32,684 nucleotides of DNA from Candidatus Woesearchaeota archaeon (GTDB taxonomy: Archaea > Nanobdellota > Nanobdellia > Woesearchaeales > UBA10216): the NCBI GenBank assembly GCA_016192945.1, contig JACPTE010000027.1:1-32684 (forward strand), read 5' to 3'. The notes beneath the pieces were generated by a model, which worked only from the letters and a program-made list of their open reading frames with translations, had not been told where the DNA came from and made no database searches. The translations under genes were made by a program, and so were the position numbers. Of this stretch, positions 12,094 through 32,084 are shown one piece after another (within the stretch, counting starts at the first letter, position 1; each line of letters begins with the position of its first letter).

Positions 12094-13470
12094 TTACTTG
12101 TTGCTTAAGCTGGGGGCAATCCTTTTAAGAACTGCCTCATTGCCCTTCCAGTCAAGGGCCTCTTTAAGAACCTCAATTATGTTGTCAACAGGAATTATCC
12201 TGATTTTTGCTGCATCATTGCTGTCCACTATTATGTCCTTGAGGTTTGTCCTGGGCACAATTACATTCTTTATTCCTGCCTCTATTGCAGCCTCTACCTT
12301 TGATGACACCCCCCCGACTGGAAGCACTTCTCCCCTTACTGAAAGGCTTCCTGTCATTGCGTATTCCTGCTTTACAGGTATTCCCTTAAGTGCAGAGATG
12401 ATTGAGGTTGCTACTGCGATGCTTGCAGAGTCGCCCTCAACACCCTCCCCATATGTCTGGAGGAACTGGACGTAAATATCCCTGGTCTTCCTTATGTCCT
12501 CGCCGAAGTATTTCTTGATTATTGCTGACACGTTGAGTATGGCCTCCTTGGCTATTTCGCCCAGCTTCCCTGTTGCTATGATATCCTTCGCCTCGCCTCC
12601 TGGAGTGACTTCCGCCTCTATGGGCATTATCAGCCCTGAGTAGGATGTGCCGCTTCCAATCACCGCAAGTCCATTTACCCTTCCTACCTTTTTCCCTGCT
12701 GTTATTATCACTTCGTACTCTTTCCTGTGCTCTATTATCTTGTCTGCTATCTGCTGCTCAAGCGTCCTTGCAATGTTTTTAGCATTCTTGACGTGTTTCT
12801 TCTCAACAAGCTTTGCGCCCTCCTCTGCTGCGAGGTCGCCTGCCGCCCTCACAAGCCCGCCCAGCTCCCTCAAGTGCAATGTAAGGTGGCCTTTCCTGTT
12901 TGCAGCTCTTCTTGCCGCAATGATTATCTCTTCAACAGCATCCCTTGTGAAGTGGGGAATCTTCTTGTCCTTCGTAACCTCCTGCGCAACAAAGTGGGCT
13001 ATTTTTTCCCTGTTTTCATCTGTGTCAGGCATTGTTTCCTTCATGAAAACCTCGTATCCGTAGCCCCTTACCCTGGACCTGAGCGCGGGGTGCATGTTCC
13101 TTATGGTTTCTACGTTGCCTGCTGCAACCAGTATGAAGTTGCACGGCACAGGCTCTGTCCTTACCATTGCGCCTGCTGACCTTTCGCTCTGCCCTGTGAT
13201 TGAGTATTTCCCCTCCTGAAGCGCTGTGAGCAGTTCCTGCTGTGTTGATGGCTGTAGTGTTGCAACCTCGTCTATGAACAGGACGCCCATGTTTGCCTTG
13301 TGAATCATCCCGGCAACCACCCGCTCATGTGCAGGAGTTCCCAGTCCGCCTGAGTTTTTACACAGGATTCCGTTGGCTATGAGGTTCCCCGAACTTGTGG
13401 TGATGTTGTAGAGCTTTCCCTTGTAGTGTACCTCTTCCTTTTTTACGATTTTTTGTTTTTCTAGTATCAT
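12094..13470 (-). CDS. lonB: LonB protease, C-terminal part with intein C-fragment
   Basis: 458 residues. Residues 1-39 are an intein C-fragment ending GILCKN, followed by Ser40, the first C-extein residue. The rest is Lon[13 protein letters not shown], Walker [11 protein letters not shown], sensor/arginine-finger region [11 protein letters not shown], and the Lon protease domain. The catalytic dyad is Ser348 in [10 protein letters not shown] and Lys391 in [10 protein letters not shown]; the 43-residue gap equals that of known Lon enzymes. The ATG is in the same frame as the preceding gene and lies three bases past its TGA, fitting termination-reinitiation. Alone it lacks Walker A and membrane anchors, so it must be joined to the upstream product. 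Confidence 0.92.
13354..13470 (-). mobile_element. Intein C-fragment of LonB (IntC, 39 residues)
   Basis: It has the block F/G shape: [19 protein letters not shown] followed by Ser as +1 nucleophile. Asn39 would cyclise to release the C-extein. The penultimate residue is Lys instead of the usual His, and the block F His is replaced, so chemistry may be slow or altered. The length is that of a typical split-intein C-fragment. Confidence 0.85.
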
Positions 13471-13473
13471 TTT

Positions 13474-15522
13474 TCAGTTGAAATCTTCATTTAAGATATA
13501 ATAAAGCGCTTTGGGTGTTAGTTTCAGTATTCTCATTGCTGACTCGGCCCCGTAGCCTCTTGAAGTTAAATCATTGAATTTGTCTTTTTTGATCGTGGCA
13601 AACTCACTTATTGCATTATTCAATTTTATTTTTTTATGGTTGCAATAGTTCATTTTCACATTCTTGATAAAATTGACAACATTTTCGAATTTTATTGAAA
13701 TCATTAATCTGAACAGGAATAAATCCTCATTATTGGTTTTTCTCTTTATTAGCGATGTCGAATTGATGCCTTTTTCGGCAAGGTATTTTCTTATTTTATT
13801 AAAAAACAATCGCCGGTTTTCATCTAGTTTTTCTGTGCCTGTAATTGCCAAATCAAGCGTTTGTAGCCTGTTTCTTTGTTTGTGCACTTTAGGCACTCCA
13901 AGCTCGCTGCCAAAGAATGAACCGTAAAACTCATCCTGTAATGTTTCGTTCAGGCTTATCCATAACGGAATGTTTAGCTCAAGGCTGGTTTTGTTTCCTT
14001 TTGGAGCTCCCAAAGCGAGAAAAAACCTTATGATATTTCGGTTTGTGTTCTGATAGCACCAAGAATGTCCTTTTTCTCCACATTCTATAATCCTGCTGTT
14101 TAAATGAATTTCATCACCGAAAACGGTTTTCAGGTCATTTCCAAATTCCATGACTGCTTCCTTTTCCATGCTTGAAAGAAAAATGCCATTTAAGTTTTTG
14201 AAGATTCCTCCATCACCAAAGGTCGCTCCAAGAATTTTTGAGATAGTTTGTGTTCGTTTATCTTCACATTTCAACGGCAGCAGGCCTTTGTCTTTCAGCC
14301 AGCGTATTGTTTGTATGGGAACAGGAATATGCCTGCCTTGGTGCCACCATCTTGTTTTTCCTGTTTTTTGTCCCATTGATTTTGCTATTTTTTTATAGCC
14401 CCATAACGGGTTTTGTGATTTGATGTCCAAATATTGGTAATATAAGCTGCATTGTTCCTGCTGTCTGGAATCGTACGTTTTGATTATCCCTTTTTCATCA
14501 ATTATTATGTCTTCTGATTTTGTGATTACTTCCTGCCCTGTTTTTATTTTTCCTGCTTCAACGAATGACGTTTTTCCATTTTCGTTAACAGCTATTTTGT
14601 GTTCAGGTGTCACGATTAATTCCTGATTTTGGGAGGTTTTTAGTTTGATCATTTTGCCGTCATAATCTTGCTTGTTGATTGACAAAACTTCTACGGGCGA
14701 AATTTTTCCTTTTGTTTCCCCCAAAATTGTAAGTTCTTCCTTATTAAGGAATATCGCCTCATACCCTTTCTTATTCCTTATTATTTCTTTTTTGTGTTTA
14801 TATTGAATATCCATGAATATTCTTTCAAGCAGCTGAGGCTTGAAGGCACCGCCCGATTTTTTATTAACGGCTGCATAGTAAAAACATTGAAAAGGGTCAT
14901 GAAGTACATCTCCCAGCAGCGCTCCTGCGTGAGCGCCTGTGGCATCAAAGAATGGCGATTGCTTCCTGCTGTGGTTATCCACAACCACCTTTGGCGCTTT
15001 CATCCTGCCATCAGCCTTTCTGCCCAGGTTCATGAACAGTATGAATGAAGCGAAGAACAGGAGCCCTCCAAAGAAGAATGCTATGAACATCAGCCCCCCG
15101 AGCAGATAGCCCCCGATTGCAGTATAGTGATTGAATGCCCATATCGGGGCTATCAGTGTTAAAATCATTATCACAATCATTATCATGTTCTGGAACCTGA
15201 ATACGTTTGCAGATTCGTAGCGTGACTTGTTGACAAGCTCCCTGCCCTGCCCTGCCGGCAAAGTCCTTATGAATGGCTGGTTTTCATCATTGGGGTTAGG
15301 GAATGCCACTACATCAACCAGCTTTTCCTTTGGAAGGAGCTCAGCAAGTGCCATTCCAAGCATTGACTTCCCGGTTCCAGGATCTCCGATAAGCAGCACG
15401 TGCCTTCTCTGCCTGGCTGCCTTCCTGATTATCCTTACAGCATCCTCCTGCCCTATGACCTGGTCAACAATCCTCGGAGAAACCTTTAGTTCAGCGGTTG
15501 TATTGAATTTATCGCCTGCCAT
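13474..15522 (-). CDS. lonB: LonB protease, N-terminal part with intein N-fragment and homing endonuclease
   Basis: 682 residues. 1-212 are the LonB N-extein: Walker A GDPGTGKS at 46-53, two membrane helices at about 112-165 that anchor archaeal LonB, and a segment ending GALLGDVLHDPFQ. Cys213 starts the intein, which runs to a TGA stop after Asn682. The intact enzyme would be an ATP-dependent membrane protease degrading damaged and regulatory proteins. GAGG lies four bases before the ATG, and a TATA-like box is centred ~27 bp upstream. The product has no Walker B or protease domain; those are in the next gene, in the same frame. Confidence 0.92.
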   Translation of the reverse strand: MAGDKFNTTAELKVSPRIVDQVIGQEDAVRIIRKAARQRRHVLLIGDPGTGKSMLGMALAELLPKEKLVDVVAFPNPNDENQPFIRTLPAGQGRELVNKSRYESANVFRFQNMIMIVIMILTLIAPIWAFNHYTAIGGYLLGGLMFIAFFFGGLLFFASFILFMNLGRKADGRMKAPKVVVDNHSRKQSPFFDATGAHAGALLGDVLHDPFQCFYYAAVNKKSGGAFKPQLLERIFMDIQYKHKKEIIRNKKGYEAIFLNKEELTILGETKGKISPVEVLSINKQDYDGKMIKLKTSQNQELIVTPEHKIAVNENGKTSFVEAGKIKTGQEVITKSEDIIIDEKGIIKTYDSRQQEQCSLYYQYLDIKSQNPLWGYKKIAKSMGQKTGKTRWWHQGRHIPVPIQTIRWLKDKGLLPLKCEDKRTQTISKILGATFGDGGIFKNLNGIFLSSMEKEAVMEFGNDLKTVFGDEIHLNSRIIECGEKGHSWCYQNTNRNIIRFFLALGAPKGNKTSLELNIPLWISLNETLQDEFYGSFFGSELGVPKVHKQRNRLQTLDLAITGTEKLDENRRLFFNKIRKYLAEKGINSTSLIKRKTNNEDLFLFRLMISIKFENVVNFIKNVKMNYCNHKKIKLNNAISEFATIKKDKFNDLTSRGYGAESAMRILKLTPKALYYILNEDFN
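13477..14886 (-). mobile_element. Intein N-fragment with LAGLIDADG endonuclease (470 residues)
   Basis: Protein residues 213-682. Cys213 is the splicing nucleophile; block B is TPEH at 305-308. A DOD/LAGLIDADG motif, ILGATFGDGGI, is at 430-440, and a degenerate second copy, FYGSFFGSELG, at 532-542. Helix-turn-helix-like segments lie at about 373-397 and 650-676. After Cys1 the sequence is FYYAAVNKKSGG, unlike usual block A. The stretch is visibly more AT-rich than the exteins, fitting horizontal acquisition. Confidence 0.85.
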
Positions 15523-30483: not shown

Positions 30484-30960
30484 CTATATGTTTTCAAACA
30501 TTCTTTCAATGTCTTTTAAGTCAAGGTGCAGTGCTTTTATCTCATTCATCCTTTTTAGTGCTCTTTCCGTGAACCCACTCTTGGAAATAAACAGGAATTT
30601 GTATTCTCCAGTGAAGTTGATGTATTTTGATTTTTTCAACAGGTTATCCACGACATCAATGTCTGTCAGGGTATTTGTCCATTTTACTTCGCTGACTAAG
30701 ATTTTTCTTGATTTGCGGTTGTATGCAACTATGTCTATTTCCTCTCCAGCCCTGTTCCACCAGCTGCCGATATTCTCAAAGTCCAGGAGGTATCCGTTCA
30801 CTTCTTTAGTCAGGTATGAAATGAGCAGTTCTTTGCTTATGTCTTCAAATGCTTTAACAGCCATTATCAATCCATAATAAATATCACCTTTGAATGAAAA
30901 ATACCATGATGCGAAACTTTCATCACGCCATTTTTGTCCTTTATGCTCTATTATCGTCAT
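30484..30960 (-). CDS. DUF234 nuclease-like domain, stand-alone
   Basis: 158 residues matching the DUF234 region, the C-terminal domain of archaeal STAND-like ATPases. The PD-(D/E)xK-type core is visible: IGSWWNRAGEEIDIVAYN with Asp76, and LVSEVKW with Glu91 and Lys93. The usual ~300-residue ATPase and winged helix are absent; only a few residues precede the conserved FASWYF segment. It may be a separate nuclease or a remnant. The ATG overlaps the upstream TGA (ATGA) with GAGGTGAT nearby, so it is still well placed for translation. Confidence 0.7.
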   Translation of the reverse strand: MTIIEHKGQKWRDESFASWYFSFKGDIYYGLIMAVKAFEDISKELLISYLTKEVNGYLLDFENIGSWWNRAGEEIDIVAYNRKSRKILVSEVKWTNTLTDIDVVDNLLKKSKYINFTGEYKFLFISKSGFTERALKRMNEIKALHLDLKDIERMFENI

Positions 30961-31430
30961 CTAATCACCTCTCCTTTTAAGATATTATTTTGCTCATAAA
31001 ACCTCCATAAATGTTCTTTTCCGCTGGCATCTTTTAGTTTTAGCCAAAATTCATCAAGAGGAGTATTAGGATTTTTTAAATTATTCCAAAGGTCGTTTAA
31101 TCTACCTTTGGTTATTAATTCATTAGGGCTTTTTAATGTGACGGTTCTTTCACGTGCATCTATATGAATCGTTCTGATTGGGTCGTTAATTATTTTCTGT
31201 GAACCTCTTAGTTGTAACACTGCGTCCTCAAGAGAGTCTTTTATTTCACCTCTTTCAGCTCCATTAATCATATCTCCTTGTTGTAATGTTTTTGCTTCAA
31301 TTACGTAAGTGTCTATCTGCATATCCGGTGTCTCTACATTAGGAAGTTCCAGTATTTTTCTTACAACTTTCGTTTGGTCTTCAAGTATGCTTGTGATGTA
31401 TTCTTTTCCTTTTATTTTTTCGTCATACAT
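30957..31430 (-). CDS. Unknown protein, possible ExK nuclease-like
   Basis: 157 residues, no recognised family. The only suggestive motif is TPDMQIDTYVIEAKTL near 34-49, a PD...ExK arrangement (Asp36, Glu45, Lys47) that could be a restriction-like fold; this is weak. The rest includes a strand-rich IRTIHIDARERTVTLKSP. GGGTGAT lies before the ATG, and the gene is translationally coupled to the DUF234 gene by a 4-bp overlap. It is AT-rich, with codon use unlike genes to the left. Confidence 0.5.
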   Translation of the reverse strand: MYDEKIKGKEYITSILEDQTKVVRKILELPNVETPDMQIDTYVIEAKTLQQGDMINGAERGEIKDSLEDAVLQLRGSQKIINDPIRTIHIDARERTVTLKSPNELITKGRLNDLWNNLKNPNTPLDEFWLKLKDASGKEHLWRFYEQNNILKGEVIR

Positions 31431-31450
31431 ATTATCACCCTTTAGCCGAG

Positions 31451-31479
31451 TTCGAAATTTATCACTATCTTCGAAATAT
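31451..31479. repeat. Direct repeat TTCGAAAT, two copies 19 bp apart
   Basis: TTCGAAAT at 31451-31458 and again at 31470-31477. Each holds the palindrome TTCGAA. They lie in the 48-bp gap upstream of the 157-residue gene and could be paired operator half-sites, or chance in an AT-rich gap. Confidence 0.3.
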
Positions 31480-32084
31480 TAATTAAATCTTATTCTCGAA
31501 AACTTTTTCCTTTCTTCACGAATTGATTTGAAAGCTTGTTCAGATAGGTCTGAATTTTTAATAGTCAATGATAAACTTTCAAATGTTGCTTTTAATTTTC
31601 CGTGTTCCCTGAACTTTAAACCGGTGTCCAAAAGAAATTTGATGAACAAATAGATGTTTATGCAAAAAGTGTCTTCTTCTAAGTACCCTTTAAGATTATC
31701 AGATTCAACAAGATTTCGGTGTATGCTTAATAACAGAATTTTTAAATCTAATAAAGTAGACTTCACAGCTTCATCAATAGTTAAATTTCTATATCTTAAA
31801 TTCGCATAGGCTGTGAAAACATATTGGTGTAAGAGAAAGTTTTGTTGACCTATTTTATCATCGGCTTCTTCATTTAAATATGGGAATTTTTTATTTAATT
31901 CTTTAGCCTGCAACTTTCTCAATTTCGGAGCCACTATTTTGAAATTCTCTATGTTTAAAATTTCATCATTATTCTTACTTATGCTTTGTTTTGCAGCTTC
32001 CAATAGTTTATTGTCCAACACATAAAATAATTTAATTACAGCGATTTTTTTAAAATCACTTATGTAAATCTCGTCTTTTTTCAT
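31479..32084 (-). CDS. Unknown helical protein, 201 residues
   Basis: No family recognised. It is AT-rich and mostly helical, with segments such as KLRKLQAKELNKKFPYLNEE and INIYLFIKFLLDTGLKF. No signal peptide, metal site or nuclease motif was seen. The upstream metallopeptidase gene ends one base before its start, and GGAGGAT in that gene's tail serves as its ribosome site. The two therefore form one operon and may act together. Confidence 0.5.
   Translation of the reverse strand: MKKDEIYISDFKKIAVIKLFYVLDNKLLEAAKQSISKNNDEILNIENFKIVAPKLRKLQAKELNKKFPYLNEEADDKIGQQNFLLHQYVFTAYANLRYRNLTIDEAVKSTLLDLKILLLSIHRNLVESDNLKGYLEEDTFCINIYLFIKFLLDTGLKFREHGKLKATFESLSLTIKNSDLSEQAFKSIREERKKFSRIRFN

Follow-up and report, generated by a model that had tools for sequence, protein, structure and literature searches.

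A candidate naturally split, endonuclease-bearing intein family divides the protease gene lonB in Woesearchaeota and related archaea

Introduction

Few inteins are naturally split, and those that are usually carry no endonuclease and are regarded as fixed endpoints. Examples have been described in cyanobacterial DnaE and in Nanoarchaeum equitans PolB, neither of which carries an endonuclease and both of which are treated as fixed. A candidate of another kind is found in lonB, the gene for the archaeal membrane protease LonB, in a tiny, uncultured Candidatus Woesearchaeota archaeon (assembly GCA_016192945.1; 1.07 Mb, 41 contigs, 92% complete). The whole stretch of DNA analysed, called the window here, comprises 32,684 nt of contig JACPTE010000027.1 and carries lonB on its minus strand as two open reading frames (ORFs), an N gene that ends with the N-terminal part of an intein (IntN) and its endonuclease, and a C gene that begins with the C-terminal part (IntC) (Table 1). 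Like DnaE and N. equitans PolB, this locus has two genes, an IntC of approximately 35-40 residues and a split at the usual endonuclease-insertion site, and trans-splicing would be expected; unlike in those systems, the intein sits in lonB, its IntN bears a LAGLIDADG domain, and it passes from lineage to lineage. Natural split inteins have been described as split mini-inteins (PMC6801210), and the natural split site is the canonical site of endonuclease insertion (PMC7090010).

Another arrangement is that of the 'fractured genes', which are said to combine split inteins with a free endonuclease of another family, in phage-like or metagenomic genes. The 'fractured genes' of Dassa et al. (2009) are cited in PMC11766414. 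The lonB relatives with three genes, described below, have the same layout of IntN, endonuclease gene and IntC, but lonB is a cellular archaeal protease gene and the endonuclease is of the LAGLIDADG type, which in the window is fused to IntN. Continuous inteins are also present in LonB at the same insertion point, HDPFQ or HDPYQ before Ser (L156 and L181 of genome G370; L036, L041, L046 and L050). L156 has a recognisably homologous endonuclease, but it forms one open frame and falls outside the split clade, while L036, L041, L046 and L050, likewise in one open frame, have no match to the window-type endonuclease. These four carry a different continuous intein, ending in THN, and the LonB of L036 is the nearest to that of the window.

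The Hint fold is shared, by sequence or by structure, with the KlbA intein of Methanocaldococcus (2jmz), TliVMA and PI-PfuI, which differ from the window intein in hosts and sites and are only 12-20% identical to it. The KlbA intein belongs to class 2 and has Ala at position 1. In the literature searched, the scope of which left subscription journals and preprints outside, no paper on split inteins of LonB or of Woesearchaeota was found, and a survey table in PMC10643990 includes just two DPANN genomes, in which one gene bears an intein.

The divided lonB locus

A first-pass annotation, made from the sequence alone, had placed an intein between HDPFQ and SGGLGTP of LonB, and all of its coordinates hold on the minus strand: the intein spans exactly 13354-14886, with HDPFQ ending at 14887 and SGGLGTP beginning at 13353. 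Within it, TGA, AAA and ATG (13476-13468) share one common frame and are followed by the 39-residue C-terminal fragment, as had been read. In a profile search, the N ORF covers positions 3-196 of the archaeal LonB model TIGR00764 and positions 195-605, with Lon_C and the LonB lid, are covered by the C ORF; the parts of archaeal LonB are complete across the two ORFs (TIGR00764, PF20436, PF05362). The assignment of Walker A and the membrane segments to the N gene, and of Walker B and the Ser-Lys protease to the C gene, is borne out by the same models, and the inserted region matches the intein models TIGR01445 and PF14890. A search of the whole assembly found no second LonB, all other matches being fragments with E values of at least 1.9e-12.

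Since LonB-N is without Walker B and protease and LonB-C is without Walker A, joining of the halves is the natural reading, and the annotation's proposal of trans-splicing is supported to that extent. We consider it very probable that a naturally split, class-1-like intein keeps lonB in two genes, that the LonB product is trans-spliced, and that the element moves as a unit and divides its targets. In the proposed mechanism, LonB-N-IntN-endonuclease and IntC-LonB-C would be made as separate polypeptides, the second probably through re-initiation coupled to termination where stop and start adjoin. The two intein parts would then fold into a single Hint domain that ligates HDPFQ to SGGLGTP and restores LonB. 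The endonuclease would be retained for mobility, and the split intein would enter intein-free lonB alleles as a unit, dividing each target gene on arrival.

The same split in relatives

Searches for the intein region covered 98 relatives and, next, 353 genomes of the order together with samples of the class and phylum; a LonB-C search of named genomes supplied further loci, nearly all labelled Woesearchaeota or other DPANN archaea. IntN-endonuclease was found in 29 of the 353 genomes, across 12 families. After removal of duplicates, and with the window included, there are 28 distinct LonB loci of the window's kind (type A), all 28 split at the same place with a 39-residue IntC, and there are 15 further split loci besides. 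The split is not a matter of chance, because it recurs in all of these. The annotation's proposal of a naturally split intein, divided at the position that is usual for known ones, is supported. Of 46 other genomes searched, 45 have no LonB besides the matched one. The exception, G278 (C40, C46; L187), has two LonB genes, an open frame of 622 aa and a divergent, split copy beside a free endonuclease; binning contamination is possible in this case. Another irregular locus is L136 (genome G194), a type-A member with a break in the IntC-LonB-C frame near NGI at the joint, which may be a sequencing error or a pseudogene.

In other orders of the class, a three-gene layout has been found, in which LonB-N-IntN, a free endonuclease and IntC-LonB-C follow each other (L145, L146, L147, L149, L150, L173, L177 and L178); L176 resembles it but has a frame break. 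In these loci, 1.07-5.36 kb lie between the N stop and the Met of IntC, and opposite-strand ORFs are present between the halves in L176, L177 and L178. A free endonuclease gene between the halves is thus found in the three-gene relatives and not in the window, where the endonuclease is fused to IntN, and the endonuclease is decayed or lost in L014, L155, L157, L184, L185 and L186. Other genes recur at these loci: TrmB-like transcriptional regulators between the type-B halves of L173, L176 and L178 (L178 by Pfam, the others by eye), and a protein of approximately 100 aa with GKPAWDM in L145, L155 and L173.

In the endonuclease tree, the LonB split members form one clade of 38 rows, with a support of 99 and without a continuous member. 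Outside this clade are L156, the continuous LonB intein, and L144, the divergent copy of G278. This single clade indicates that the split is old and, most simply, has one origin that appears to predate today's spread. The first-pass annotation had suggested that such a locus would be an early stage of splitting, which does not fit a split that is common to orders of the class and whose endonucleases form one clade without a continuous member.

Mobility of the element

A tree of 112 LonB exteins has its split alleles dispersed among intein-free ones, with at least 13 changes forced by well-supported branches, and close LonB pairs differ in the presence of the element (L007/L051, L047/L081 and L012/L059). 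Of 25 splits, 2 are common to the intein tree and the extein tree of the 28 type-A members; the intein and extein data each reject the other's tree (approximately unbiased test, p 7e-31 and 7e-50), and over 378 pairs intein identity shows no correlation with extein identity (rho -0.008). In the nearest LonB relatives of the window, this site holds another, continuous intein (L036, L041), a mostly endonuclease-less split intein (L014) or none (L037), while the nearest relatives of the window's intein are L131 and L138. The conflict between intein and LonB trees, together with the scattering of split alleles among intact ones, shows that the element is mobile and that the intein has moved horizontally.

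Homing is likely to have been driven by this endonuclease, as the tree conflict and the patchy distribution indirectly indicate. The endonuclease has two LAGLIDADG helices and the corresponding predicted fold, and its acids Asp225 and Glu328, taken as catalytic, are present in at least 90% of the 28 type-A rows of the alignment. The target site itself differs in silent codons. For the +1 Ser, TCN is used in 42 of 42 split alleles, compared with 37 of 55 Ser codons where the allele is empty (p 9e-6); for the target Leu, CTT is used in 24 of 27 split versus 24 of 64 empty alleles (p 6e-6). This bias may reflect a preference of the endonuclease or flanks carried over with the intein. Because stop and start lie inside the homing unit, arrival of the element would make one lonB into two in a single step. 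We lean, with a fair share of doubt, towards a split intein with a built-in endonuclease that is actively homing among DPANN archaea and makes an intact lonB two-gene and trans-splicing-dependent in one invasion, with sister lineages, in which the endonuclease is separate and the halves have drifted apart, completing a series from adjacent to separated halves.

Some points weigh against the proposed mechanism. When tested on independent pairs, the codon biases are no more than borderline (median p 0.06-0.07), flanking DNA near the site gives no significant signal of general co-conversion (Mann-Whitney p 0.32), the second LAGLIDADG motif is degenerate (GSFFGSELG), and the trees were built from metagenome assemblies. 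Near-site DNA identity, compared by intein status, shows no excess, although co-conversion is clear in one pair, L007/L051, and no relative was found among viral contigs that might indicate a viral carrier. A real split intein that is no longer homing, inherited from a class ancestor and repeatedly lost, with ordinary lonB recombination behind the tree conflict, would account for the occurrence of the split in several orders, for the six loci with a lost or decayed endonuclease, and for the lack of viral relatives and of a general co-conversion signal. This alternative is unlikely, though it has to be taken seriously: the intein tree and the LonB tree are mutually rejected, identity of the intein does not follow that of its host, most type-A members have kept the endonuclease frame and its acids, and the silent codons of the target differ between split and empty alleles.

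Splicing residues and predicted fold

The residues on which splicing would depend are conserved throughout the family. Position 1 of the intein is Cys, Ser or Thr in 43 of 43 split loci, while such residues make up only 13% at positions 2-31, and in all 42 readable cases the last residue of IntC is Asn and the +1 residue is Ser. Block B Thr93 and His96 are invariant in the 28 type-A sequences, and in every part of the locus codon position 3 is less conserved than positions 1 and 2. The residue at position 1 switches freely (Thr 13, Ser 20 and Cys 10 of the 43 loci), and position -3 of IntC (13362-13360 in the window) is Cys in 27 of 27 readable type-A loci and mostly Val in type B. A class 3 intein was also considered and set aside, as a position-1 nucleophile is present in all.

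In a structure model of the window intein, for which TGA was read as Trp and a 57-row alignment was used, a Hint and LAGLIDADG fold is predicted with a mean pLDDT (predicted local distance difference test) of 92, and the IntC strands complete the predicted Hint fold. The only segment below a pLDDT of 50 is residues 471-479, which comprise NEDFN, the TGA, AAA and ATG codons and the next residue. The best structure matches in the PDB (Foldseek) are the endonuclease-bearing inteins TliVMA, Tko intein II and PI-PfuI, mini-inteins also being matched, and the endonuclease part matches I-DmoI; by sequence, the closest is the KlbA intein 2jmz (E 1e-9). In sequence and in predicted structure, the element thus has most of the features of a naturally split intein.

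Other features sit less well with splicing. Canonical inteins have a penultimate His, whereas here the penultimate residue is Lys (34), Ser (5), Arg (1), Ala (1) or Thr (1); splicing without a penultimate His is nevertheless known. Thr at intein position 1 is rare among known inteins, and block A is poorly conserved. It might be supposed that the LonB halves stay unligated and that the intein fragments keep them together as an enzyme of two subunits, since Hint halves could serve as an assembly domain. This is very improbable, because assembly alone would not need the splicing residues, and yet Cys, Ser or Thr at position 1, the terminal Asn and the +1 Ser occur without exception in readable loci while their neighbours vary freely.

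Stop-start junctions

The junctions between N and C genes are of several types. Among the 28 type-A loci, the N gene stops at TGA in 26, TAG in one and TAA in one. Stop and start overlap by 4 nt in another frame in 17 loci (16 ATGA, one TTGA) and by 11 nt in one further locus; in two, the window and L067, they are in frame with three bases between; and in eight the halves are separated by 224-597 nt, which sometimes hold another ORF, for example a DUF3795 protein. The single in-frame TGA-AAA-ATG junction on which the first-pass annotation had centred is real in the window, but it is only one of these types and does not define the family. The Met of IntC was invariant in a first alignment of 15, with exceptions elsewhere in L142, which starts with TTG, and L138, which starts further upstream. 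A small conserved ORF of about 50-75 aa (e.g. MKTPIKKFPLTKLEQKKYV...) is present between the type-A halves of L009, L010, L047, L121 and L131; its copy in L009 has no Pfam match.

These junctions bear on the two other explanations that the annotation had offered. In the first, readthrough of UGA in the window's organism would yield one continuous precursor that is spliced in cis, for which speak the in-frame junction of the window, the good model of the read-through protein and the same spacing in L067, there with TAG as the stop. In the relatives, however, readthrough could not join the halves, because these lie in different frames (17 of 28) or have other sequence between them (eight); the Met of the C gene is conserved, and TGA is an ordinary stop in the window, ending 13 of its 31 longer ORFs. 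Readthrough is thus rejected for the family and, for the window itself, retains a very small probability, slightly below that of a two-subunit enzyme. The second, a sequencing error, is taken here together with an assembly error and with a fresh nonsense mutation of an otherwise ordinary, continuous intein. It would be suggested by a lone in-frame stop in a metagenome assembly seen by itself, but it is the least credible of all, as the distinct type-A loci all share one split position with varied stops and spacings, the relatives' N genes end with TGA, TAG or TAA and mostly overlap the C gene out of frame, and there are free-endonuclease relatives and an endonuclease clade without a continuous member. 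As judged from these sequences, the cut is real, old and spreading, and sequencing error is not its source.

Features of the window

The coordinates of the split lonB are collected in Table 1. An Rfam scan of the window at gathering thresholds gave no match. The G+C content falls to 31% at 31001-32000, near the ORFs at 30957-32084, versus 41-52% elsewhere.

Table 1. Parts of the split lonB locus in the window, with the evidence for each.
Feature	Positions	Strand	Basis
Whole N gene, LonB-N-IntN-endonuclease, 682 aa	13474-15522	minus	ORF translation
Whole C gene, IntC-LonB-C, 458 aa	12094-13470	minus	ORF translation
LonB N-extein: start codon, Walker A (GDPGTGKS), two membrane segments, end HDPFQ	14887-15522	minus	TIGR00764 3-196
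IntN, N-terminal Hint part: Cys1 at 14886-14884, block B Thr93/His96 at 14610-14599	14500-14886	minus	TIGR01445 and PF14890 matches, alignments, structure model
LAGLIDADG endonuclease and helical DNA-binding-like parts	13477-14499	minus	alignment; Foldseek: PI-PfuI, TliVMA, I-DmoI
Conserved acids of the endonuclease, Asp225 and Glu328	14214-14212 and 13905-13903	minus	alignment
TGA, stop of N gene	13474-13476	minus	sequence and relatives' junctions
ATG, start of C gene, after AAA (13473-13471)	13468-13470	minus	Met kept in relatives
IntC, 39-residue C-terminal Hint part, end CKN, terminal Asn at 13356-13354	13354-13470	minus	alignment; model strands 481-515
LonB C-extein: +1 Ser at 13353-13351, Walker B, lid, Ser-Lys protease	12094-13353	minus	TIGR00764 195-605, PF05362, PF20436

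Significance

The larger finding is what appears from the sequences to be a conserved, class-wide and mobile split-intein family in LonB. In practical terms, it offers dozens of new putative split-intein pairs with a short IntC of 39 aa, including Ser1 and Thr1 versions. In this family, many states are found side by side in one cellular gene, with the endonuclease fused, separate or decayed and with halves that may lie kilobases apart. As this suggests, homing by a selfish element may be enough to break a host gene in two, and the origin of split inteins and of split genes becomes directly testable.
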